DNA from: Betaproteobacteria bacterium RIFCSPLOWO2_02_FULL_67_26
Lineage (GTDB): Bacteria > Pseudomonadota > Gammaproteobacteria > Burkholderiales > SG8-41
Length of the DNA: 44,854 bases
Direction: 5' to 3'
Assembly: GCA_001771935.1 (NCBI GenBank)
Contig: MERD01000031.1
Coordinates: 1-44,854, forward strand
Made by a program: the position numbers and the translations under genes. The notes below the pieces were generated by a model. That model did not search any database. It worked only from the letters and a program-made list of their open reading frames with translations, and had not been told where the DNA came from. Each line of letters opens with the position of its first letter. Positions within the stretch are counted from its first letter, which is position 1. Positions 7,605 through 43,760 of the stretch are shown here, one piece after another.

Positions 7605-8581
7605 TATTCGAATCTCACGCGGGGATCGACCCAGGTGTATGAGATGTCCGTAACAATGAGCCCGACGATGTAGAGCACCGAGCCGAGGAAGACCATCGCG
7701 CGCACCACGGCGAAGTCCTGGGAGTTGATGGCGTCTATGGTGTAGCTGCCCAGCCCCGGAATGCCGAAGAAAGCTTCCGTGACGAGGCTGCCCATGAACA
7801 GCAGCGGGATCACCACCACCACGCCGGTGAGGATCGGAATCATCGCGTTGGCGAGCACGTGGCGGAACAGCACGCGCAGCTCGGAAAGCCCCTTGGCGCG
7901 CGCGGTGCGCACGTAATCCTTGCTGATTTCCTCGAGGAAGATGGTGCGGTACCAGCGCGTGCTCGCCCCGATCCCGCTCACCACGCCGATGATGACCGGC
8001 AGCACCAGGAACTTGAGCGCGTTCGCGCCGCCGTCGTAGCCCGAGATCGGCACCAGGTTGAGGAGCTTGCCGACGAGGTACTGGCCGCCGATGATGTAGA
8101 ACAGCCCCGAGATGGACATCATCATCACGCAGGCCACCACGCCCCAGAAGTCCACGTAGGTCGCGCGGAAGAACGCCATCAGCAGCGCGAACGTGAGGTA
8201 GGCCGCGAGGCCCAGCAGGAACACCGGCAGCGCGATCGCGAGGCTCGCCCACATGCGGTTGCCGATGTCGTAGCCGATGTCGCGCCCCTGGTCGGAACGG
8301 CCGAACTCGAAGGCGAACAGCTTCACCGACTTCTCGTAGAAGATGGTGTCGGTGAACGCCTGCGCGCCGGCGGCCGCCCCGTTGTAGAGCAGCGCCTTGT
8401 CGTAGCCCCGCTCTTCCTTCCATTTCCGGATCGCCTCCGGCGTCACGCGCTTCACCCCCAGGTGCACGCGCGCCATGTCGTCCGGCGAGTTGACGACGAA
8501 GAACAGCGTGAAGGTGATGACGTTGACCCCGATCAGGATCGGGATGGCGTAGAGCAGGCGGCGGATGATGTAGGCGATCAT
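7604..8581 (-). CDS. yejB: Oligopeptide ABC transporter permease (YejB / OppB type)
   Basis: First inner-membrane permease of the peptide importer, 325 residues. It begins MIAYIIRRLLYAIPILIGVN, the typical OppB/DppB first membrane segment. A periplasmic loop with SDQGRDIGYDI follows, then further spans and the EAA loop DYVRTARAKGLSELRVLFRH. It ends in the conserved DISYTWVDPRVRFE. The frame is open further upstream, but the ATG at 8581 gives the family N-terminus and overlaps the yejA stop by four bases. Overlaps on both sides imply balanced expression of the complex. Confidence 0.94.
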   Translation of the reverse strand: MIAYIIRRLLYAIPILIGVNVITFTLFFVVNSPDDMARVHLGVKRVTPEAIRKWKEERGYDKALLYNGAAAGAQAFTDTIFYEKSVKLFAFEFGRSDQGRDIGYDIGNRMWASLAIALPVFLLGLAAYLTFALLMAFFRATYVDFWGVVACVMMMSISGLFYIIGGQYLVGKLLNLVPISGYDGGANALKFLVLPVIIGVVSGIGASTRWYRTIFLEEISKDYVRTARAKGLSELRVLFRHVLANAMIPILTGVVVVIPLLFMGSLVTEAFFGIPGLGSYTIDAINSQDFAVVRAMVFLGSVLYIVGLIVTDISYTWVDPRVRFE

Positions 8582-31221: not shown

Positions 31222-33711
31222 TTAGTTTCTGAGGGGCTTCCCGGTCTTCAAGGTATGCTCGATCCGCGCCTGGGTCTTCTCGGTGGCGATCAGCTCCATG
31301 AAGTGCTTGCGCTCGAGATCGAGGAACCACTGCTCGTCCACCAGGCTGCCCCCCTCGATATCGCCGCCGCACATCACGATCGCGATCTTGTGGCCGATCA
31401 GGTAGTCGTGCTCCGAGATGTGCCCGCCGGCCAGCAGGTTCTCCATGAACGCGCGGATCGTCGCGATCTGGCTGCGTCCAGCGGCCGGTATCGCGACCTG
31501 CCTGAGCGGCGGACGGTAGCCGGCGGCGGCGAGCGAGCGCACTTCCGCCTTGGCGATCTCGAGCTGCTCGAAGCGGTTCATCACGATGCGATCGGTCGCG
31601 CGCAGGTAGCCGATGTCGCGCGCCTGCTCCGCGCTGCGCCCCACTTCGGCCATCGCCACCGCCTTGAAGTACTTCTGGATGAACGGCGACATGTCCCCGC
31701 CCTTGGCGTCGGCCGCCGCCCGCATCGCGAATTCCTTGCAGCCGCCGCCCGCCGGCAGCAGTCCCACGCCGGCCTCCACCAGCCCGATGTAGCTCTCGAG
31801 CGTCGCCACCGCCCGGTCGCTGTGCATGACGAATTCGCAGCCTCCGCCGAGCGCCAGCCCGTCCACGGCGGCGACGGTCGGAACCATCGAGTACTTGAGC
31901 GCCTGCGTCGTGTCCTGGAACTGCTCGACCAGCTTCTCCACCTCGGCGAGCTTGCCCGCCATCAACTGGTCGGCGACGCCGATGCTTCGCGCCGCCTTCA
32001 AGGCGAGCGATTCGGCTTCGCGCGTGACCTGCCGGAACAGCCGGCCGAGCGCGGACGGCTTGGACGGCCTGCCGCCGCCGGCGGGCGTTTTCCTGAGGTT
32101 CGCGCCGACGGAGAACGGCGGCTCGGTCTGCCAGATGACGAGGCCCATGTAGTTGCGCTCGGCCTCGACCAGCGCCTGCAGCACCCCCTCGAGCACGTCG
32201 TCGCCGATGGCATGCATGCGGCTCTTGAAGCTGACGATCGCGATGTCGTCGCGGGTGTGCCAGCAGCGCACGCCTTCGGTCTCGAAGATGGTCTCGCCGT
32301 ACTTGACCGCCTCGCCCAGCAGGCGGTCGGGAAATGGCTGGCGGCGGTAGACCGGCAGGCGAGAGCGCGGCTTCCAGGCGTTTGCCGCGGGCGAGAACGA
32401 GCCCTGCTCGCCGTGCACGCCCTTGCGCGAGGTTTCCATCGCCCACGCCGGCAACGGCGTACCGGTCATTCCTTTTCCCGCCGCGATGTCCTCGGCAATC
32501 CATTTGGCGAGCGTATGCCAGCCCGCGGCCTGCCAGATCTCGAACGGCCCCTGGGTCCAGCCGAAGCCCCACCGGATCGCAAGATCGAGGTCGCGCGCGT
32601 TGTCCGCGATCTCGGCCAGGCTCGCCGCGCAGTAATGGAAAGCATCGCGGTAGATGGACCAGAGGAATTGCGCCTGCGGGTGCGTCGAGCCGTGCAGCAG
32701 CTCGAAGCGCGCCGCCACGTCCTTGTTCTTGAGGATCTCGACCACGCCCTCGTCCGCTTTGCCGTCGGACGGCCGGTAATTCCGCGTCTTGAGATCGAGC
32801 ACGTGGATGTCGGGGCCGATCTTCTGGTAGACGCCCTTGCGGGTCTTCTGTCCGAGCGCGCCCTGGTCGATCAGTTTCTTCAGCCACGCCGGGACCTCGT
32901 AGTACTGGTGCCACGGATCATTCGGCAGCGTCTCCTTCATGGTGTTGACGACGTGCGCGAACGTGTCGAGACCCACCACGTCGGCGGTGCGGAAGGTCGC
33001 GCTGCGCGGGCGCCCGATGAGCGTGCCGGTGAGCGCGTCCACGACGTCGAAGCCGATGCCGAGCCGCTCGGCGTGATGGACCGTCGCCAGCATCGAGAAC
33101 ACGCCGACGCGGTTGGCGATGAAGTTGGGCGTGTCCTTCGCGCGGATCACGCCCTTGCCGAGCACGGTGACGAGGAACTTCTCGAGATCGTCGAGGATCG
33201 CCGGATCGGTGTCGGCGGTGGCGATCAGCTCGACCAGGTGCATGTAGCGCGGCGGGTTGAAAAAGTGCACGCCGCAGAAGCGCCGGCGCTGCCCCTCCGG
33301 AAACGCCTGCGCGAGCCTGTTGATCGAGAGGCCCGAGGTGTTGCTGGCGAAAATCGCGTGGTCGGCGAGATGCGGGGCGACCTTCTGGTAGAGGTCGGCT
33401 TTCCAGTCCATGCGCTCGGAGATCGCCTCGATCACGAGGTCGCACTCCTTCAGCTGCTCGAGGTGCTGGCCGTAGTTGGCGGGCTGGATCAGGCCGGCGC
33501 GCGCCGCGCTCGCGAGCGGGCTCGGCTCGAGCTTCCTGAGGTTCTCGATCGCCTTCAGCACGTTGCCGTTGGGATCGCCGTCCTTGGCCGGAAGCTCATA
33601 GAGCACGGCGGAAACATTGGCGTTGACGAGGTGCGCCGCGATCTGCGCGCCCATGACGCCGGCGCCCAGCACGGCGGCCTTGCGCACGATGAAGGGCGTA
33701 GCGGCGGCCAT
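31222..33711 (-). CDS. fadN: Bifunctional 3-hydroxyacyl-CoA dehydrogenase / enoyl-CoA hydratase (FadN-like domain order)
   Basis: Catalyses two steps of beta-oxidation. The 829-residue protein has the NAD-binding dehydrogenase first (AAVLGAGVMGAQIAAHL near residue 12, NTSGLSI, GVHFFNPPRYMHLVE with the catalytic His) and a 3HCDH C-terminal region with DTPNFIANRVG. The crotonase (hydratase) part comes at about residues 480-720, including LALGGGCEFVMHSDRA and VEAGVGLLPAGGG with a catalytic Glu. This order is that of Bacillus FadN and the reverse of E. coli FadB/FadJ. It is 20 bases after fadL and upstream of fadA. The symbol is by domain architecture only. Confidence 0.92.
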   Translation of the reverse strand: MAAATPFIVRKAAVLGAGVMGAQIAAHLVNANVSAVLYELPAKDGDPNGNVLKAIENLRKLEPSPLASAARAGLIQPANYGQHLEQLKECDLVIEAISERMDWKADLYQKVAPHLADHAIFASNTSGLSINRLAQAFPEGQRRRFCGVHFFNPPRYMHLVELIATADTDPAILDDLEKFLVTVLGKGVIRAKDTPNFIANRVGVFSMLATVHHAERLGIGFDVVDALTGTLIGRPRSATFRTADVVGLDTFAHVVNTMKETLPNDPWHQYYEVPAWLKKLIDQGALGQKTRKGVYQKIGPDIHVLDLKTRNYRPSDGKADEGVVEILKNKDVAARFELLHGSTHPQAQFLWSIYRDAFHYCAASLAEIADNARDLDLAIRWGFGWTQGPFEIWQAAGWHTLAKWIAEDIAAGKGMTGTPLPAWAMETSRKGVHGEQGSFSPAANAWKPRSRLPVYRRQPFPDRLLGEAVKYGETIFETEGVRCWHTRDDIAIVSFKSRMHAIGDDVLEGVLQALVEAERNYMGLVIWQTEPPFSVGANLRKTPAGGGRPSKPSALGRLFRQVTREAESLALKAARSIGVADQLMAGKLAEVEKLVEQFQDTTQALKYSMVPTVAAVDGLALGGGCEFVMHSDRAVATLESYIGLVEAGVGLLPAGGGCKEFAMRAAADAKGGDMSPFIQKYFKAVAMAEVGRSAEQARDIGYLRATDRIVMNRFEQLEIAKAEVRSLAAAGYRPPLRQVAIPAAGRSQIATIRAFMENLLAGGHISEHDYLIGHKIAIVMCGGDIEGGSLVDEQWFLDLERKHFMELIATEKTQARIEHTLKTGKPLRN

Positions 33712-33731: not shown

Positions 33732-35102
33732 CTAGAACGTGTGGCGGTACTGGATGCTCAGGATGTCGACCTTGCTGTCGAAATTGCCGATCAACGCGCC
33801 GCGCCCCGCCACCAGCGCGGGCGACAGCGCCGGCTGGCCGACCATGTTGATCAAGGGATCCTTGACGAACAGGTGCGCGTAGCCGAAATCGAGCGTGCCG
33901 GCCTGAGAAACCTTGTATTGCGCGCCGATCGCCAGCCAGGTGCGGTCCTGGTCCGGGATGCGCGGCGTCCGGTAGGTGTCCTGCGTGGGGGTCTGGTCAT
34001 ACGCGATGCCGAAGCGCACGGTCCACGGCGGGCTCAGGCGGTAATTGGCGCCGATGCCGACGCGCCAGGTATCGGACCAGTAGAACGGCGTGCTCTCGAG
34101 CGTGGCGCCGTTGCTCCGGATGATGTCCAGCGTCTTCAAGCCGCTCCAGCCCGTCCACGTCGCATCCGCGAGCACGTCCCACTGGTTGTTGACCCGGTGC
34201 TTCAGCGCGAATGACAGCGTGGCCGGCATCTTCACGTTCGCCGTCACCGGGCCGTCCCCGGCCTGGTTGAACACCGGCGCCAGGCCGAGCAGCGCGTTCA
34301 CCGCGGCGGGACGTCCCTGGTAGGTAACGTCCCCGGACAACTTGAAATGCATCGCCGAGCGATAGGCGATGCCCAGATCGGTATCCGGCCCCGGCTTGAT
34401 CATGATGCCCGCGTTGTAGCCCCAGGCGCCGTCATCGGCCGAGATCTTGTTGCTGCCCTCGGTGTTGTTTGGCACGCCGGGGATGCCGCCCGCCGAGGCG
34501 AGGAAGCTGTAGTTCACCGCCTTCGTCAGCTCGCCCTCGAAGGTCTGGTAGTTGACGCCGAAGCCGAGCGAGATCTGGTCGTTGAACTTGACGGCGAACG
34601 ACGGGTTGATGTTGATGGCCTTCACTTCCGACTTGAGGGCGTGGAAGCGTCCCATCCAGGTCGCGTCGTAATCCGTCTTGAGGCCGAACGGCGCGTTGAC
34701 GCCGACCCCGAGGTACAGCTTCGGATTGAGCTGCCACGACAGGTACAGGTTGGGGACGAACGCCAGATCGCCGGCGTCGCCTCCGTTCCCGTTCAGCGCG
34801 TACGGGCCGGCGCCGAGTATTGTGGAGACTGCTGGCCGGGTCCCGGCGTTGTTGAACTCGGCCGACGGAACGATGAGGTGGCCGGCGACGACGACCTGCC
34901 GTCCCTGCAGCCGCGTCATCCCCGCGGGATTGAAGTAGATCGTGCTCGCGTCATCCGCTGCGGCGGCGGCACCCGCGTAGGCATTCCCCAGGCCGCTTGC
35001 GCTCTGCTCGATCAGCGCGAAACCCGAAGCCTGCGCCCCGCCGGAAACTGCGGCCAGCGCCGCGGATACCGCGAACGGGATCAGTGTCTTGTAGCGCGTC
35101 AT
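33732..35102 (-). CDS. fadL: Outer-membrane long-chain fatty-acid transporter FadL
   Basis: A 456-residue outer-membrane beta-barrel for uptake of long-chain fatty acids. The signal peptide ends near AQASG. The mature N-terminus SGFALIEQSASGLGNAYAG followed by DDASTIYFNPAGMTRL is the FadL hatch signature. The NPAGM motif is intact and the final residue is Phe, as expected for barrel assembly (IQYRHTF). A GGGGGAGA site precedes the ATG. It lies between the thioesterase and the fadN gene; a possible TAATAT -10 lies in the 75-base gap upstream. Confidence 0.95.
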   Translation of the reverse strand: MTRYKTLIPFAVSAALAAVSGGAQASGFALIEQSASGLGNAYAGAAAAADDASTIYFNPAGMTRLQGRQVVVAGHLIVPSAEFNNAGTRPAVSTILGAGPYALNGNGGDAGDLAFVPNLYLSWQLNPKLYLGVGVNAPFGLKTDYDATWMGRFHALKSEVKAININPSFAVKFNDQISLGFGVNYQTFEGELTKAVNYSFLASAGGIPGVPNNTEGSNKISADDGAWGYNAGIMIKPGPDTDLGIAYRSAMHFKLSGDVTYQGRPAAVNALLGLAPVFNQAGDGPVTANVKMPATLSFALKHRVNNQWDVLADATWTGWSGLKTLDIIRSNGATLESTPFYWSDTWRVGIGANYRLSPPWTVRFGIAYDQTPTQDTYRTPRIPDQDRTWLAIGAQYKVSQAGTLDFGYAHLFVKDPLINMVGQPALSPALVAGRGALIGNFDSKVDILSIQYRHTF

Positions 35103-35177: not shown

Positions 35178-35588
35178 TTAGTGTTGCGCGGAAACAACAC
35201 GCGGGTTGCGGTTCTCGTCGATCGCCACGTACGTCAGCGTCGCCTCCGTGACCTTCACGACCTGCTCGCGCTCCGGCTTGCGCTGCGCGTAGACCTCGAC
35301 GTTCACCGTGATCGAGGTGCGCCCGACGCGCACCACCTCGGCGTAGAAGCTGACGATGTCGCCCACCAGGACCGGTTGCTTGAACTGGAACGAATTGACC
35401 GCCACCGTCGCGACGCGGCCGCGCGCGAGCCGCACCGCCGGGATGCTGCCCGCGATGTCCACCTGCGCCATGATCCACCCGCCGAATATATCGCCGCTCT
35501 GATTCTCGTCGGCGGGCATGGGCGCGACGCGGAGCGTCACTTCCTTGCCGGCCGGGAGGGTGGTGGTGGGGCGGTCAGTGACCGGCAT
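35178..35588 (-). CDS. Acyl-CoA thioesterase, YciA-like hotdog fold
   Basis: A small cytoplasmic thioesterase (136 residues) that hydrolyses acyl-CoA. The hotdog core has MPADENQSGDIFGGWIMAQVD, the catalytic/CoA-binding signature of the YciA/BFIT group (N-x-x-G-x-x-F-G-G). VAVNSFQFKQPVLVGDIVSFYAEV and TYVAIDENRNPR follow. The start at 35588 overlaps the end of the acyl-CoA synthetase gene by 14 bases, so it is translated from the same message. Pairing a synthetase with a thioesterase suggests control of CoA release during fatty-acid breakdown. Confidence 0.93.
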   Translation of the reverse strand: MPVTDRPTTTLPAGKEVTLRVAPMPADENQSGDIFGGWIMAQVDIAGSIPAVRLARGRVATVAVNSFQFKQPVLVGDIVSFYAEVVRVGRTSITVNVEVYAQRKPEREQVVKVTEATLTYVAIDENRNPRVVSAQH

Positions 35589-37377
35589 ACATGCGGTCGA
35601 TTTCCGCGTTGAACTTTTCCATCACCTTGGCGCGTTTCAGCTTGAGCGTCGGCGTGAGGAGCCCGTTCTCCACCGACCACGGCTCGAGCGTCGCGGTGAT
35701 GCGGCGGACCTGCGCGTAACCCGGGAATTCCTTCATCTGGGCGGCGATGCGCCCGCGCAGGATTTCCTCGGCCTGCCTGGAGCCCACCGTCGCCGGCGCC
35801 GGGTCGAGCCCGCTCTCCACGCAGAGCTGCTTCCAGAGGTCCGCGTTGAGCACCGTCATCACCGTCAGATAGGGCTTGCCCTCGCCCAGCAGCATCACCT
35901 GCTCGAACAGGCGGTCGCGCGCGATGGCGGCCTCGATATCCACGGGCGGCACTTTCTCGCCGTTCGAGAGCACGATGATCTCCTTCAGCCGCCCGGTGAT
36001 GAAGACGTGCCCCTCGCCGTCGATGCGCGCGGTGTCGCCGGAATTGAGCCAGCCGTCCGCGCCGAGGATCGCCTGGGTCGCCTCCGCATTGTTCCAGTAG
36101 CCGAGCATGACGTTCGGGCCCTTGATCAGGAGCGCGTTGTTGTCCCCGATCCTGAGCTCCACGTCCGGCAATGCCGTTCCGACGCTCGCCGGCAGGTTGT
36201 CGTCCGGGCGGTTGGCTGCCGCGACCGGGCTGCACTCCGTCATGCCGAATCCCTGGAGCACCGTGAGCCCGAGGCCGAGAAACACCCGCGAGATGTCGGG
36301 CGGCAGCGCCGCGCCGCCGGAGATCGCCGCGCGCACGCGCCCGCCGAGGCGCGCCAGGATCTTTTTCGCAACCAGCGCGTTCAGCACCGGCCACAGCAGG
36401 AAGGACGGCTGCCACGGCCCGCGGCCCTGCGCGTGCTCGAAGCGCGCGTAGCCGATTTCCACCGCGAGGAGGAACAGCTTCTTCTTCAGCGGCGGGCCCT
36501 GGTCGAGCGCGTCGCGGATGCGGCCGTACACGCGCTCGTAGATGCGGGGCACCGAGATCAGCAGCGTCGGGCGCACCGACTGCAGGTCCTCCCCGAGCAC
36601 CGGGATGCCCCGTGAATACGCCGTCGTGGAGCCGGTCAGGATGGTGAGGTAATAGCCGCAGGTGCGCTCGAACGTGTGCGACAGCGGCAGGAACGACAGA
36701 AACAGGTCGTCGTGCCCGGCGGTCAGCACCGCGCAGCTCGCCGCGGCGTTGGACAGGATGTTGTGGTGCGACAGCATCACGCCCTTCGGCCGGCCGGTCG
36801 TGCCCGACGTATAGACGATGGTGGCGAGCGCCTTCGGATCGCGCGGCACGTGGCGGGACTGCCCGCCCTGGGCCGGCAGCCATTCCCCGATCCACCTCAA
36901 CCTCGGCTCGCCCGGGTTGGGCACCGAGTTGACGGTCAGGATGCGGTTCACGTTCCCCAGCTGGTGCTTGACGTCGGACAGCGCCCGCCACTGCTCGGCG
37001 CCCTCGATCAACAGCGCCTTGCAGCCCGAGTCGCGGATGATGTAGGCGACGTTGTCCGCCCGGTCCTGCGTGTAGAGCGGCACCACCACGAGCCCCAGCC
37101 CGAGCGCCGCCTGGTCGAAGGTCACCCACTCCGGCGAGTTCTTCAGCATTACGGCGACGCGGTCGCCGGCCTTGAGCCCGTCCTTCTCCAGCGCCGCCTG
37201 CCAGCGCGCCACCTGGTGGTCGATCTGCGCCCAGCTGTAGTCGCGCCAGTTCTTGTGCTGCTCGTTGTACTCGCGGTACGCGACGAGGTCCGGCGTGCGC
37301 TTCACGCGCTCGCGGAACAGGCCGTCGAGCGTCACCGCCGCTTCGACGGGAATCAGGTGGCCGGGTTGTTGTGGCAT
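35575..37377 (-). CDS. Long-chain acyl-CoA synthetase (AMP-forming, FadD15/ACSBG-like)
   Basis: Activates fatty acids to acyl-CoA with ATP. The 600-residue adenylate-forming enzyme shows the P-loop TIVYTSGTTGRPKGVMLSH, GFGMTECSPV, and the hinge/C-terminal motif WLNSGDTARIDGEGHVFITG with RLKEIIVLSNGEKVPP. The GEKVPP wording and length resemble the FAA1/ACSBG subgroup rather than E. coli FadD. There is no signal peptide. It overlaps the thioesterase gene and follows the SDR gene by 49 bases. Confidence 0.93.
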   Translation of the reverse strand: MPQQPGHLIPVEAAVTLDGLFRERVKRTPDLVAYREYNEQHKNWRDYSWAQIDHQVARWQAALEKDGLKAGDRVAVMLKNSPEWVTFDQAALGLGLVVVPLYTQDRADNVAYIIRDSGCKALLIEGAEQWRALSDVKHQLGNVNRILTVNSVPNPGEPRLRWIGEWLPAQGGQSRHVPRDPKALATIVYTSGTTGRPKGVMLSHHNILSNAAASCAVLTAGHDDLFLSFLPLSHTFERTCGYYLTILTGSTTAYSRGIPVLGEDLQSVRPTLLISVPRIYERVYGRIRDALDQGPPLKKKLFLLAVEIGYARFEHAQGRGPWQPSFLLWPVLNALVAKKILARLGGRVRAAISGGAALPPDISRVFLGLGLTVLQGFGMTECSPVAAANRPDDNLPASVGTALPDVELRIGDNNALLIKGPNVMLGYWNNAEATQAILGADGWLNSGDTARIDGEGHVFITGRLKEIIVLSNGEKVPPVDIEAAIARDRLFEQVMLLGEGKPYLTVMTVLNADLWKQLCVESGLDPAPATVGSRQAEEILRGRIAAQMKEFPGYAQVRRITATLEPWSVENGLLTPTLKLKRAKVMEKFNAEIDRMYAGH

Positions 37378-37426: not shown

Positions 37427-38245
37427 TCAGTCGAGGAACAAGTCGGTATACAGGCTGGTTCCGGGAGTGACCGCGTACTGATCGAAGTCGGTGACGCCCT
37501 CCTCCCGCAGCACCGTCTCGTCGATGTAGAAGTTGCCGGTGGCGCCGCGGCTGTCGCGGCTCAGTATGGCATGCGCGGCATCGGCCATGATCGAGGGCTT
37601 GCGGCTCGCCTTGAGGATCGCCTGCGGAAAATTCACTGCGATCGCGGCGGTGGCGATGGTGGTGCGCGGCCACAGCGAATTCACCGCGATGCCCTGCGCG
37701 CGGAATTCCTCCGCCATTCCCAGGGTGCACAGGCTCATGCCATATTTTGCCATGGTATAGGCGACGTGCCCCTTGAACCACCGTGCATTCATGTTGAGCG
37801 GCGGCGAGAGGGTCAGTATGTGGGGATTGGCCGCTTTTGCGAGGTGGGGAATGCAGGCCTGCGAGCAGACGAAGGTGCCGCGCAGGTTGACCGCCAGCAT
37901 GAGGTCCAGGCGCTTGACCGGGGTGTCGAGCGTGCCGGTCAGCGAGATCGCGCTCGCGTTGTTGACCAGGCCATCGATCCCGCCGAACGCCTTGACGGCG
38001 GAGCGGACCGCGGCGGCCACCGCGTCGGCATCCCGCACGTCGAGCTGGATCGCGAGCGCCTTGCCGCCGGCGGCCTCGATTTCCTTCGCGACACTATGTA
38101 TGGTGCCCGGCAGTTTCGGATGCGGCTCGGCCGACTTGCCGGTCACGACGACGTTCGCGCCGTCGCGCGCGCAGCGGAGCGCGATCTCGCGCCCGATCCC
38201 GCGCGTCGCACCGGTAATGAAGATCGTTTTGCCCTTGAGCCCCAT
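37427..38245 (-). CDS. SDR family oxidoreductase, HSDL2-like
   Basis: A 272-residue SDR. The cofactor loop TGATRGIGREIAL and LVNNASAISLTGT are intact. The active site YTMAK with upstream Ser in LTLSPPLN is canonical, unlike the other SDR in this window. The stretch TGKSAEPHPKLPGTIHS and the C-terminal STAR-type ending are typical of hydroxysteroid dehydrogenase-like protein 2, a group linked to fatty-acid metabolism. The ATG at 38245 is embedded in a heptamer tract; the in-frame GTG at 38248 is an alternative start. It lies between fadE and the acyl-CoA synthetase gene. Confidence 0.9.
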   Translation of the reverse strand: MGLKGKTIFITGATRGIGREIALRCARDGANVVVTGKSAEPHPKLPGTIHSVAKEIEAAGGKALAIQLDVRDADAVAAAVRSAVKAFGGIDGLVNNASAISLTGTLDTPVKRLDLMLAVNLRGTFVCSQACIPHLAKAANPHILTLSPPLNMNARWFKGHVAYTMAKYGMSLCTLGMAEEFRAQGIAVNSLWPRTTIATAAIAVNFPQAILKASRKPSIMADAAHAILSRDSRGATGNFYIDETVLREEGVTDFDQYAVTPGTSLYTDLFLD

Positions 38246-38262
38246 CACCCATCACTCATCAC
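38243..38262 (-). repeat. Heptamer tract GTGATGR at the fadE/SDR junction
   Basis: Units CACCCAT (38246-38252) and CACTCAT (38253-38259) with partial units at both ends fill nearly the whole 20-base gap between the fadE stop and the SDR start. The SDR start codon is part of the tract. Confidence 0.8.
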
Positions 38263-38265
38263 GCC

Positions 38266-40812
38266 CTATGTTCCCGGATTGGGCTGGTGCCCGCGCGCGT
38301 CCATCTCGGGCCACGACGTTCTGCCGCGCAGCTCCCCGAACGTGACCGGCTGGGTGGTCTGGTAGATCTCGGTCTTGCCGAGGTCCCGCGGGAAATCGTC
38401 CACCATGATCACCTGCCGGCGCAGGAGCTTCGCGCGCTCCATCGCGTTGCGATCGTCCTGCGTGATCACCCCTTTCGCCAGCGCCTCCTCGACGATCTCG
38501 TCGGCGAAGCGGGCGGTGATCATGCCGCGCTCCCGCGCCGCGCGGATCTTGGCGCCGATCGGCTCCGCCGCGATCACCGCGCGCAGCGCCGCTTCCAGCG
38601 CCGCGACCGGTTCCTGCGGGTCCCTGGGGATGTACACGCCCGCGGTCAGCCGCTCGCGCGCGGGCCCGGGCTGAAGCAGCAGGCCCACGACCTCGTGGCC
38701 GAGGCGATCGCGCGGCGGCTCGAACTCGCGCCCGTAGGGATAGATGAACGGGAAGATCACGCCGCGCATCGCCCACGCGATGAAGCGGTTGGGCAGGTTC
38801 GCGAACAGGCCGTAGAACGCGTCCTCGGTGCGCGCGAGCGCGTCCTGGATCGACCAGTGGACGAGCGGCAGGTCCTCCTCCGGCCGCCCCTGGTCCTCGT
38901 AGCGCTTCAAGGCGCAGGACGCGAAATAAAGATGGGAGAGGATGTCTCCGAGCCGCGCCGACAGCCGCTCGCGGCGCTTCAGCGATCCGCCGAGCAGGAA
39001 CATCGAGACGTCCGCGGTCCACGCGAACGCGGACGAGAGCCGCGTCAACTGCTGGTAGTAGCGCTTGGTGTGCCGGTCGCCCGGCGCGCTCACCAAGCGC
39101 GCCCCGGTCAGCCCCATCCAGAACGCGCGCGCCTTGTTCGCCGCGGTGAACGCGAGGTGCCCGAAGAACGCTTCGTCGAAATCGCGCAGCGCCTTGCCCG
39201 GCTCGGCTTCCCGCGTCGCCAGCATCTCCTTCAGCACCCAGGGATGGCCGCGGATCGCGCCCTGGCCGAAGATGATCATCGAGCGCGTCAGGATGTTCGC
39301 GCCTTCCACCGTGATCGCGATCGGCGTCTGCTGGTAGGCGCGCGCGAGGTAGTTGTTCGGGCCCATGCAGATGCCCTTGCCGCCGTGGATGTCCATCGCG
39401 TCGTTGATCACCGCCCGGCCGCGCTCCGTCATGTGGTACTTGACGATCGCCGACACGACCGAAGGCTTCTCGCCGAGGTCGATCGCCCCGGCGGTCATCA
39501 CGCGCGCCGCCTCCATGATGTAGGCGTTGCCGCCGATGCGGGCGAGCGCCTCCTCCACGCCTTCGAAACGGCCGATGGAAAGGCGGAACTGCTGGCGCAC
39601 GCGCCCGTAGGCGCCGGTGGCGAGCGCGCCCAGCTTGCCGGTCGCGGCCGACAGCGCCGGCAGCGAGATCGAGCGGCCCGCCGCGAGGCAGTTCATCAGC
39701 ATCTTCCAGCCCTCGCCCGCGTACTCCACTCCGCCGATCACGTAATCCATCGGCACGAACACGTCCTTGCCCCAGTTCGGGCCGTTCATGAACGCGGCGT
39801 TGAGCGGCAGGTGGCGGCGCCCGATGTGCACGCCCGGCGTCTTCGTGGGAATCAGCCCGAGCGTGATGCCGATGTCGTCCTTGTCGCCCAGCAGGTGCTC
39901 CGGGTCGTAGAGCCGGAACGCGAGCCCGAGCAGCGTCGCGACCGGCCCGAGCGTGATGTAGCGTTTCTCCCACGTGAGGCGGATGCCCAGCACGTCCTTC
40001 CTGCCTTCCCACTCGCCGCGGCACACGATCCCGTAGTCGGGTATCGCGCCGGCGTCCGATCCCGCCTCCGGGCTGGTCAGCGCGAAGCACGGGATATCCA
40101 GCCCCTTCGCGAGGCGCGGCAGGTAGTGGCTCTTCTGCTGCCCGCTACCATAATGGAGCAGCAGCTCGGCGGGCCCGAGCGAGTTCGGCACCATCACCGA
40201 CACCGCGACCGTGCCGCTGCGCGTGGAGAGCTTCATCACCACCTCGGAGTGCGCCAGCGCGGAGAATCCCAGTCCCCCGTACTGCTTGGGGATGATCATG
40301 CCGAGGAAGCCCTTGTCCTTGATGAACTGCCAGACGCGCGGCGGCAGATCGTTCAGCTCGTGCGTGATTTCCCAGTCGCTCACCATCCCGCACAGCTCTT
40401 CCACCGGGCCTTCGAGGAACGCCTGCTCTTCCGCCGTCAGCGTCGGCTTCGGATAGGCGAGGAGCTTGCTCCAGTCGGGATCGCCGCTGAACAGCTCGCC
40501 GTCCCACCACACGGTGCCGGCCTCGATCGCGTCCTGCTCGGTCTGCGACATCGCCGGCAGGATCCTGCGGAACAGATTGAGCAGCGGGCGGCTCACCACC
40601 GCGCGGCGGACCGCCCACGGGAAAAGCAGCGCCGCGAGGACGGCGAACACGGCCAGGATCGCCACCAGCAACGGCTGCGGCCAGCGGGAGAACGTGAACA
40701 GCAGACCGATCCCGACCGCCGCCACCGCGATCCAGGCAAGCGCCGGCGCGCGGTGGTAGGCGAGTATCCACATGACCACGAGCGCGGCGAGGAGGGTGAA
40801 AAGCACGTCCAT
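38266..40812 (-). CDS. fadE: Membrane-associated acyl-CoA dehydrogenase FadE
   Basis: First oxidation of beta-oxidation, passing electrons to ETF. The 848-residue protein is of the large FadE/YafH type (E. coli 814). Two or three N-terminal hydrophobic segments (about residues 3-72) precede the dehydrogenase core: FLGMIIPKQYGGLGFSALAHSEV, ALTSPEAGSDAG, IHGGKGICMGPNNYLARAYQ and ITVEGANILTRSMIIFGQGA. The C-terminal DUF1974-type extension is present (HLYFASCALKRYEDQG, DALARTEDAFYGLFANLP). It is first in the minus-strand fatty-acid cluster and divergent from the ACP-FAAL-PlsC gene. Confidence 0.96.
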   Translation of the reverse strand: MDVLFTLLAALVVMWILAYHRAPALAWIAVAAVGIGLLFTFSRWPQPLLVAILAVFAVLAALLFPWAVRRAVVSRPLLNLFRRILPAMSQTEQDAIEAGTVWWDGELFSGDPDWSKLLAYPKPTLTAEEQAFLEGPVEELCGMVSDWEITHELNDLPPRVWQFIKDKGFLGMIIPKQYGGLGFSALAHSEVVMKLSTRSGTVAVSVMVPNSLGPAELLLHYGSGQQKSHYLPRLAKGLDIPCFALTSPEAGSDAGAIPDYGIVCRGEWEGRKDVLGIRLTWEKRYITLGPVATLLGLAFRLYDPEHLLGDKDDIGITLGLIPTKTPGVHIGRRHLPLNAAFMNGPNWGKDVFVPMDYVIGGVEYAGEGWKMLMNCLAAGRSISLPALSAATGKLGALATGAYGRVRQQFRLSIGRFEGVEEALARIGGNAYIMEAARVMTAGAIDLGEKPSVVSAIVKYHMTERGRAVINDAMDIHGGKGICMGPNNYLARAYQQTPIAITVEGANILTRSMIIFGQGAIRGHPWVLKEMLATREAEPGKALRDFDEAFFGHLAFTAANKARAFWMGLTGARLVSAPGDRHTKRYYQQLTRLSSAFAWTADVSMFLLGGSLKRRERLSARLGDILSHLYFASCALKRYEDQGRPEEDLPLVHWSIQDALARTEDAFYGLFANLPNRFIAWAMRGVIFPFIYPYGREFEPPRDRLGHEVVGLLLQPGPARERLTAGVYIPRDPQEPVAALEAALRAVIAAEPIGAKIRAARERGMITARFADEIVEEALAKGVITQDDRNAMERAKLLRRQVIMVDDFPRDLGKTEIYQTTQPVTFGELRGRTSWPEMDARGHQPNPGT

Positions 40813-40904
40813 GAGTGCCCCTTTGTTCGAGCGGGAAGTTTAACCCAGCCGGGCGCGCGGGAGCGTGTGCTACCATCAATTCACTTCTCAAGCACGAGCG
40901 CGAT
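40813..40904. promoter_or_regulatory. Divergent regulatory region between fadE and the ACP-FAAL-PlsC gene
   Basis: The only non-coding space serving two opposite lipid operons. On the minus strand TAAACT (40842-40837) could be a fadE -10; on the plus strand TACCAT (40871-40876) could be a -10. Neither has a clear -35. I found no recognisable FadR- or PsrA-type operator. Confidence 0.4.
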
Positions 40905-43760
40905 GTGGAAACTTCCGCCGGCAGGAAGGAAGCAGGCCGGGGCGAAATCGGCGCCGATGCGCTGATCGAATTGATCCGGCGGCTCGCCGCGGAGCTGCAT
41001 CCCACCCGCGCCGCCATTCCCTCCGCGCTCGACGCCCGGCTCGAGCAGGATTTCGGCTTCGACAGCCTGGCGCGCGTCGAGCTGTTCCTGCGGATCGAGA
41101 AGCGCTTCGGCGTGACCTTGCCGGAAACCGTCATGGCGAGCGCCGAGACGCCGCGCGATCTCATGCGCGCGATGCTGGCGGCGAGCCCCCACCACGCGCA
41201 ACCCGCCACGCTCGAGCGCGCGACCGCGCTTGCCGCGGAATCGGAGACGCCGGACGAGGCCGTCACGTTCCCCGAAGTGCTCGCGTGGCACGTGCGCCGC
41301 CATCCCGGCCGCCCGCACATCGTGCTGCAGGACGAGGACGGCAACGAGCGCATCGTTCCCTATTCGGAGCTCGACCAGGCGGCGCGCGCGGTCGCCGCCG
41401 GCCTCGTCGAGCGCGGGATCGAGCCGGGCAAAGCGGTGGCGATCATGCTGCCGACGAGCGTCGAGTATTTTTTCAGCTTCTTCGGCATCCTGCTCGCGGG
41501 CGGCATCCCGGTCCCGATCTACCCGCCGGCGCGCGCCTCGCAGATCGAGGACCACCTGAAGCGCCACGCCACCATACTCTCGAACGCGCTCACCGCGATG
41601 CTGATCACGGTGCCGCAGGCGAAGCCGCTCGCGCTGCTGCTGAAACCCAGGGTGGACACGCTGAAGGACGTGGTGACGCCGGAAGAGCTGATGCGTCCCG
41701 GCGCGGCGGCGGCGGTGCATCGCGCGCGCCCGCAGGACATCGCGATGATCCAGTACACGTCCGGCAGCACCGGCAACCCCAAGGGCGTCGTCCTCACCCA
41801 CGCCAACCTGCTCGTCAACATCCGCGCGATGGCGAGAGCGCTGCGGGTGACGCCGGCCGACGTGTTCGTGAGCTGGCTGCCGCTCTACCACGACATGGGG
41901 CTCATCGGCGCCTGGATGGGAAGCCTGATGTACGGCTTCAAGTACCCGGTCATGTCGCCGCTCACCTTTCTCGCGCGCCCGGAGCGCTGGCTGCGGACCA
42001 TCCACCGCCACGGCGGCACGCTCTCCGGCGGGCCCAACTTCTGCTACGAGCTGTGCCTGCGCCGCATCCAGGACGCGGACGTCGAAGGGCTCGACCTCTC
42101 CACCTGGCGCGTCGCGTTCAACGGCGCGGAGCCGGTGTCGCCCGAGACGATGGAGGCGTTCACGAAACGTTTCGCGCGCTACGGCTTCAAGCCCGGGGCG
42201 ATGGCGCCGGTGTACGGGCTCGCGGAAGCGACGCTCGGCGTCGCGTTCCCGCCGCCCGGCCGCGGCCCCCTGCTCGACCGCGTGGACCGCGAGCCGTTCA
42301 TGAACGGCGGCCGCGCCGTGCCGGTGGGACCGGAGCACACGGATGCGCTGGTACACGTGGCGTGCGGACTGCCGGTCCCGGGCCACCAGATACGCATCGT
42401 GGACGGCTCGGGCCGCGAGCTGCCCGAGCGGGCTGAGGGCCATATTCAATTTAGCGGGCCGTCCGTCACCAGCGGCTACTACCGCAACCCGGAGGCAACA
42501 AAAAACCTGCTCCACGACTCCTGGATGGACACCGACGACTACGGCTACGTCGCGGAGGGCGACATCTACATCACCGGGCGCATCAAGGACACCATCATCC
42601 GCGCCGGCCGCAACATCCACCCCTACGACCTGGAGGAAGCGGTCGGCAACGTCGAGGGCGTGCGCAAGGGCTGCGTCGCGGTCTTCGGCAGCAAGGACGA
42701 GCGCGCCGGCACGGAAAAGATCGTCGTGCTCGCCGAGACGCGCGAGACCGATGCCGCGAAGCGCGAGGCGATTCGGACGCGCATCAACGATCTCGCCGTG
42801 TCGCTCATCGGCACGCCGCCGGACGACATCATGCTGGCGCCGCCGGGCACCGTGCTCAAGACCTCCAGCGGCAAGATCCGCCGCGCCGGCAGCCGCGAGG
42901 TCTACGAGCGCGGCGGCGGCACCGGCACGCGCGCGGTGTGGTGGCAGGTCGTGCGCCTCACGTGGTCCGCCATCCTGCCGCAGCTGCGGCGCACGCTGCG
43001 CACCGCCGCCGATCAGCTCTACGGCGCCTATGCCCTGTTCCTCTTCGGCTCGTTCGGCGCGCTGGTGTGGCTCGGCTGCGCCGTGCTGCCGCGCGCTGAC
43101 TGGGCATGGCGCTACAGCGGCCGCCTGGCGCGCGTGTTCCTGCGGCTGATCGGCATGCCGCTCGCGGTGCGCGGCCTCGAGCACATCCCTGCCGGGCGCG
43201 CTTGCATGATGGCCATCAACCATGCCAGCTACCTCGACGGCATCCTGGTGGTCGGCGCGCTGGCGGAGCCGAAAGCGTTCGTCGCCAAGAGCGAGCTGCT
43301 CGACCACTGGGTGCCGCGCATATTTCTCAAGTCCATCGGCAGCGTCTTCGTGGACCGCCTCGACGCGCAGCGCGGCGTGGAGGACACCGCGCGCTTCGTG
43401 GCAGCCGCGCGCGGCGGGCAATCGCTGATCGTGTATCCGGAAGGCACTTTCCGCCGCATGCCGGGGCTGCTGCCGTTCCGCATGGGCGCGTTCGTGATCG
43501 CGGCGCAGGCCGGCGTGCCGGTGGTGCCGGTCACGCTCCGCGGCAGCCGCTCCGCGCTGCGCGACGGCCAGTGGCTGTTCCACCGCAGCCGGCTCTCCGT
43601 GACCTTCAGCGCGCCGATCGAGCCGACGGGAAACGACTGGAACGCCGCGATCCGGCTGCGCGACGCCACACGGGCGGAGATATTGAGGTTGTGCGGAGAA
43701 CCCGATCTCAGCGAGGAGATGTCACTGATGCCCAAGCGGACAGTCGCGCCGAACGAGTAA
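40905..43760 (+). CDS. Trifunctional ACP - fatty-acyl-AMP ligase - PlsC acyltransferase fusion
   Basis: About 951 residues from the GTG at 40905. An N-terminal carrier domain (about 15-92) has the phosphopantetheine Ser54 in DFGFDSLARVEL. A fatty-acyl-AMP ligase follows (about 120-680), with IQYTSGSTGNPKG, SWLPLYHDMGLIG, GGPNFCYELCLRRI, VYGLAEATLGVA and DTDDYGYVAEGDIYITG. The wording is FAAL rather than acyl-CoA synthetase. A hydrophobic segment (about 705-725) leads into a PlsC domain with NHASYLD near 772 and EGTFRR near 846. This suggests activation of free fatty acid, loading on the attached ACP and transfer to a glycerolipid or similar acceptor. The frame is open to 40815, only 2 bases from fadE, so an internal start is more plausible; GTG is weakly supported. 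Confidence 0.85.
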   Translation: METSAGRKEAGRGEIGADALIELIRRLAAELHPTRAAIPSALDARLEQDFGFDSLARVELFLRIEKRFGVTLPETVMASAETPRDLMRAMLAASPHHAQPATLERATALAAESETPDEAVTFPEVLAWHVRRHPGRPHIVLQDEDGNERIVPYSELDQAARAVAAGLVERGIEPGKAVAIMLPTSVEYFFSFFGILLAGGIPVPIYPPARASQIEDHLKRHATILSNALTAMLITVPQAKPLALLLKPRVDTLKDVVTPEELMRPGAAAAVHRARPQDIAMIQYTSGSTGNPKGVVLTHANLLVNIRAMARALRVTPADVFVSWLPLYHDMGLIGAWMGSLMYGFKYPVMSPLTFLARPERWLRTIHRHGGTLSGGPNFCYELCLRRIQDADVEGLDLSTWRVAFNGAEPVSPETMEAFTKRFARYGFKPGAMAPVYGLAEATLGVAFPPPGRGPLLDRVDREPFMNGGRAVPVGPEHTDALVHVACGLPVPGHQIRIVDGSGRELPERAEGHIQFSGPSVTSGYYRNPEATKNLLHDSWMDTDDYGYVAEGDIYITGRIKDTIIRAGRNIHPYDLEEAVGNVEGVRKGCVAVFGSKDERAGTEKIVVLAETRETDAAKREAIRTRINDLAVSLIGTPPDDIMLAPPGTVLKTSSGKIRRAGSREVYERGGGTGTRAVWWQVVRLTWSAILPQLRRTLRTAADQLYGAYALFLFGSFGALVWLGCAVLPRADWAWRYSGRLARVFLRLIGMPLAVRGLEHIPAGRACMMAINHASYLDGILVVGALAEPKAFVAKSELLDHWVPRIFLKSIGSVFVDRLDAQRGVEDTARFVAAARGGQSLIVYPEGTFRRMPGLLPFRMGAFVIAAQAGVPVVPVTLRGSRSALRDGQWLFHRSRLSVTFSAPIEPTGNDWNAAIRLRDATRAEILRLCGEPDLSEEMSLMPKRTVAPNE

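Follow-up and report, generated by a model that had tools for sequence, protein, structure and literature searches.

The window (the whole stretch of DNA analysed, 44,854 nucleotides) contains, close to its end, a forward-strand frame that is open throughout from position 40815 to 43760 (981 codons) and that encodes a predicted fusion of an acyl carrier (ACP), a fatty acyl-AMP ligase (FAAL) and a PlsC-type acyltransferase (Table 1). The preliminary description of this locus had placed the translation start at the GTG at 40905, and this start was kept as more plausible than the upstream GTG at 40815 because the latter lies only 2 bp from the start of the divergent fadE gene and because the similarity of relatives mostly begins near query residues 1–20. 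A gene of the NMT1/THI5-like substrate-binding protein family follows on the same strand at the contig end (43768–44691), and as it starts 8 bp past the stop codon of the fusion, the two genes may be co-transcribed.

Table 1. Features of the fusion gene and of the divergent genes beside it.
Feature	Coordinates	Strand	Remark
ACP-FAAL-PlsC fusion gene, ~951 aa	40905..43760	+	probable GTG start
Acyl carrier (PP-binding) domain, N-terminal, residues ~20-97	40962..41195	+	
Ser54, predicted phosphopantetheine attachment site (G-F-D-S-L)	41064..41066	+	57/57 relatives
Fatty acyl-AMP ligase (FAAL) domain, residues ~120-670	41262..42914	+	
Lys657, A10-motif lysine (KTSSGKIRR)	42873..42875	+	57/57 relatives
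Hydrophobic helix, residues 710-728, likely membrane-embedded start of PlsC domain	43032..43088	+	
PlsC/AGPAT-type acyltransferase domain, residues ~746-935	43140..43709	+	
HX4D catalytic motif (His773, Asp778)	43221..43238	+	57/57 relatives
Divergent fadE-type acyl-CoA dehydrogenase	38266..40812	-	context
Short-chain dehydrogenase (SDR)	37427..38248	-	context
Long-chain acyl-CoA synthetase, FadD-like	35575..37377	-	context
FadL/OMPP1 outer-membrane fatty acid transporter	33732..35102	-	context
FadB-like 3-hydroxyacyl-CoA dehydrogenase/enoyl-CoA hydratase	31222..33711	-	context

The translated frame was searched with Pfam profiles, which resulted in matches above the Pfam cut-off for, from N- to C-terminus, PP-binding (35.6 bits, cut-off 20.8), AMP-binding (243.7 bits, cut-off 29.9) and Acyltransferase (86.0 bits, cut-off 23.0). 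A strong hydrophobic helix, like the N-terminal membrane helix of PlsC itself, lies between the FAAL and PlsC parts. Residue conservation was scored over 57 aligned relatives with 41–85% identity. Carrier residues Ser54, Glu59 and Arg63 were invariant in all 57, as were His773 and Asp778 of the HX4D motif and Glu846-Gly847 of the EGT motif, and judged by these residues both the carrier and the acyltransferase look active. Across nine close pairs, dN/dS was 0.14–0.43 for the ACP, 0.17–0.31 for the FAAL and 0.17–0.32 for the PlsC part; selection is thus purifying in all three, and all three are therefore translated. The preliminary description had called the three domains, a carrier with its pantetheine serine and a membrane segment ahead of PlsC from motifs alone, and each call was borne out, with the attachment site predicted at Ser54 in its D-S-L motif and the membrane segment at residues 710–728. 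The possibility raised there that translation begins downstream and leaves the ACP segment untranslated is answered by the dN/dS of that segment. A full-chain structure prediction, made from three sequences only, had a mean pLDDT of 34.

The type of ligase was examined using E. coli FAAL (EcFAAL; 3PBK), its closest solved relative (8.8e-90). In EcFAAL, W224, M231 and F279 block the canonical CoA pocket, R251–P259 form a FAAL-specific helix, and P107 and P226 line an alternative pantetheine pocket (PMC8460268). These residues were mapped through the 3PBK alignment, in which the chain numbering is that of the paper minus one. The CoA-pocket-blocking residues are present as W324 (57/57 relatives), M331 (55/57) and F379 (57/57), the helix as P352–P359 (with F355 and P359 in all 57), and the prolines of the pantetheine pocket as P208 and P326 (57/57 each). 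The FAAL-specific insertion, which the preliminary description had proposed to look for, is also present at the sequence level, with region 459–475 aligning ungapped to 3PBK. The top NCBIfam models were fatty acyl-AMP ligases, the best full match reaching 439 bits, which is below the cut-off of that model. By sequence the ligase is thus of the FAAL type, as first proposed, with every EcFAAL CoA-rejection residue that was checked in place, and from the role established for these conserved residues in FAALs we infer that it would exclude CoA.

FAAL-ACP starter modules of PKS and NRPS systems (the group of EcFAAL 3PBK and PRK09192) share with the fusion the ligase family, the CoA-rejecting residues and a carrier in cis, but in all seven other FAAL-carrier fusions examined from this class the FAAL precedes the carrier and PlsC is absent. 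These seven come from a control scan for domains in eight long FAAL frames of the same bacterial class. In most of them ketosynthase, condensation, aminotransferase or acyl-CoA dehydrogenase domains lie alongside; the eighth frame, which gave no ACP call, runs into a reductase and likewise has no PlsC. A carrier at the N-terminus together with PlsC at the C-terminus is therefore an architecture of its own. A role as a PKS/NRPS loading protein was considered and rejected, as no such domains follow and FAAL fusions of the PKS/NRPS type have the carrier on the opposite side.

The PlsC domain matches a solved AGPAT (5kym, 3.1e-21) and, with its HX4D and EGT motifs, is AGPAT-type by sequence; it differs from that family in being fused and in scoring 87.7 bits against TIGR00530 (AGPAT), under the curated cut-off of 102.95. 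It also falls under the cut-off of every NCBIfam equivalog, and two standalone PlsC-like proteins encoded elsewhere in the genome likewise miss the TIGR00530 cut-off. The acceptor could in principle be an aminolipid of the lyso-ornithine type or a natural product rather than a glycerolipid, and OlsA models do match the domain weakly (50 bits against a cut-off of 300). We regard such an acceptor as very improbable: both the best-scoring model and the solved relative of the domain are AGPATs, the other FAAL fusions of the class run into ketosynthase, condensation or aminotransferase domains and this one does not, and no match to the OlsB-type family (PF13444) was found in the genome, which makes lyso-ornithine acylation unlikely.

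One functional parallel is Aas (E. coli b2836, bifunctional acyl-ACP synthetase/2-acyl-glycerophosphoethanolamine acyltransferase), in which a single polypeptide likewise combines a PlsC-type acyltransferase with an ATP/AMP fatty acid activating enzyme, with acyl-ACP as the expected donor and membrane repair as the likely role. The domain order of Aas is the opposite, however, it uses free AcpP where the fusion has a built-in carrier (PMC11416262 for Aas), and its ligase is not FAAL-type, with identity of 26–29% over partial domains. The Aas model PRK08043 hits the PlsC part of the fusion weakly (35 bits) and gives no full-length match, whereas a canonical Aas encoded in the same genome (719 aa, with 48% identity to the E. 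coli protein) scores 848 bits. The fusion would act like Aas yet is not Aas, and the contrast that the preliminary description drew between the two holds. Replacement of Aas by the fusion was rejected, as Aas is present in the same genome and accompanies the fusion in 15 of 22 fusion-bearing near relatives; because of this co-occurrence the fusion is best seen as an accessory enzyme beside the standard ones, and probably a non-redundant one.

The likeness to Aas allows another account of the carrier, in which the FAAL charges free AcpP as well as the ACP of its own chain, the PlsC domain accepts any acyl-ACP, and the fusion raises local concentration without a strict intramolecular channel. 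E. coli Aas works in this way with free ACP (PMC11416262), and the two proteins distantly share PlsC and ANL domains. We consider this account unlikely, though it is the strongest of the alternatives, since a carrier would be unneeded if free AcpP served equally well, and the carrier is kept in 57 of 57 relatives with Ser54, Glu59 and Arg63 invariant and with near-fixed linkers. The distance from Ser54 to the A3 motif is 229–239 residues and that from Lys657 to His773 is 114–121 residues, a near-constancy expected if the domains hand over substrate. Channelling to the built-in carrier is therefore our best reading of the invariant serine and the near-fixed domain spacing, although the spacing could alternatively reflect structural packing alone.

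ElbD of Myxococcus xanthus, which was overlooked in the preliminary description, is a precedent for the fusion, as it combines these three activities, differently ordered, with a reductase. Compared by description, both proteins carry a ligase, a carrier and an AGPAT-like acyltransferase on one chain; ElbD is arranged FAR-ACS-ACP-AT with an N-terminal reductase, its ligase and carrier activities have been demonstrated in vitro, it is needed for ether lipids, and ElbD-like homologues that lack the FAR domain have been reported from other phyla (PMC9131029). By analogy, the fusion might produce an acyl intermediate for an ether lipid or another special lipid rather than serve ordinary phospholipid repair. 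This seems improbable given that the chain has no reductase domain in the Pfam search, that no ether-lipid partner was found among the window neighbours scanned, and that the domain order differs, with the ACP first in the fusion.

Taken with these alternatives, the explanation that fits best, and that we hold with somewhat better than even confidence, is a membrane-associated, CoA-independent, self-loading lyso-glycerolipid acyltransferase. AcpS, whose match (PF01648) is the sole PPTase-family match found in the genome, would place phosphopantetheine on Ser54 of the N-terminal carrier, and the FAAL domain would convert a free fatty acid and ATP to acyl-AMP. The acyl group would then pass not to CoA but to the carrier on the same polypeptide (or on a partner polypeptide), and the carrier would deliver it to the C-terminal PlsC, where His773 and Asp778 would esterify a lysolipid at the inner membrane, the likeliest acceptor being lysophosphatidic acid or a lysophospholipid. 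As an outcome, free fatty acids, whether taken up through FadL or set free when the membrane is damaged, would be diverted from beta-oxidation back to the membrane independently of CoA. The sequence shows the domain anatomy and the catalytic residues behind this scheme, and from these we infer three of its elements, namely transfer within one chain, chain length and acceptor. A broader version, in which a large uncharacterised Pseudomonadota family provides a single-chain path from free fatty acid to glycerolipid on its own carrier, with CoA and the AcpP pool excluded, as stress-linked salvage alongside Aas, is put forward tentatively and at somewhat less than even confidence.

In bacteria, exogenous fatty acids are thought to re-enter phospholipid through FakAB/PlsX, through FadD and acyl-CoA, or through acyl-ACP synthetases, and the latter, such as Aas, use free AcpP. 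If our reading is true, a common CoA-rejecting fusion with its own ACP would represent one more route, insulated from both beta-oxidation and the AcpP pool, and in this genome it supplements a known repair enzyme, the canonical Aas, rather than replacing it. Lipid acylation would then also join the known outlets of FAALs, a survey of which tied bacterial FAALs to PKS/NRPS systems with occasional dehydrogenase or oxygenase fusions (PMC8460268).

The genomic context was then examined. The divergent beta-oxidation cluster of the preliminary description was confirmed as FadE, SDR, FadD, FadL and FadB, so that genes for both importing and degrading fatty acids adjoin the fusion. In two further relatives, too, FadE lies near it. 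A separate acyl-CoA synthetase (AMP-binding) gene is often found beside or near the fusion (at three other loci and at 35575–37377 in the window), so that CoA- and ACP-linked fatty acid activation are encoded close together. Fusion neighbours otherwise differ widely between loci, and context outside this genus is therefore weak evidence; elsewhere they include acyl-CoA synthetases, an alpha/beta hydrolase, a PLD-family protein, cyclopropane fatty acid synthase, NfeD and NAPRTase, and a conserved operon partner was sought across ~50 loci without one being found. Several plasmid copies sit in stress-type islands that contain FtsH, universal stress protein, Hsp20 and BON-domain genes. Across four loci, which hold plasmid copies in Methylobacterium, Cupriavidus, Paraburkholderia and Sinorhizobium, the neighbours include genes of these four kinds and others for DUF302 proteins and P-type ATPases. 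The varied neighbours and the plasmid stress-type islands fit a role in membrane maintenance, although this is not strong evidence.

Two smaller patterns were seen among the neighbours. Six close relatives have a conserved gene of ~170–200 aa with a lipoprotein-like N-terminus, located just upstream of the fusion in five and three genes upstream in the sixth (L087); no such gene was seen next to the window's own fusion. In four distant genomes an NfeD-type gene is adjacent to the fusion or one gene away, with an SPFH-like gene in three of the four and a nicotinate phosphoribosyltransferase next door in two.

The taxonomic survey proposed in the preliminary description showed that the fusion is not peculiar to this genome but belongs to a widespread family. 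Full-length fusions were identified in 22 of 60 near relatives (its own genome counted), among which a few others are broken by contig ends or frameshifts, and in ~50 of 321 genomes drawn evenly across the class (hand count). A phylum-wide draw added a few further genomes, Alphaproteobacteria among them, and named plasmids carrying the fusion include those of Methylobacterium nodulans, Cupriavidus, Paraburkholderia, Sinorhizobium and Photobacterium, where annotated full-length copies are labelled AMP-binding protein. Within the class draw, identity was 42% or higher for full-length fusions and no more than 41% for unfused FAALs. In a quick tree a single branch (SH-aLRT 99) sets the fused FAALs apart as one clade, and the divergence of the three domains is correlated (Mantel r 0.76–0.83), which suggests an old fusion that has been passed on in one piece. 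Because it is kept at 41–85% identity, the architecture is far beyond chance. The family appears common yet uncharacterised: no published description of a FAAL-PlsC or ACP-ligase-PlsC fusion was found in the literature searched, which covered a minority of subscription journals. Metagenome screens that use ElbD as a marker for ether lipids apply a threshold of 30% identity (PMC11868695), and they could catch members of the ACP-FAAL-PlsC family.

Some departures from the single full-length copy were also observed. Four genomes contain two diverged fusion copies each. The copy at 8533–10818 of L130 (Sinorhizobium fredii CCBAU 45436 plasmid pSF45436d), which is annotated as 1-acyl-sn-glycerol-3-phosphate acyltransferase, keeps the ACP and PlsC parts and lacks query residues 145–361 of the FAAL domain, including the A3 motif. 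Another locus (L150, 2639–3421) encodes a PlsC-type protein of 261 aa that stands alone, with neither a FAAL nor an ACP in its vicinity; this protein is 46–47% identical to the PlsC domain of the fusion and may represent an unfused ancestor or a secondary split.
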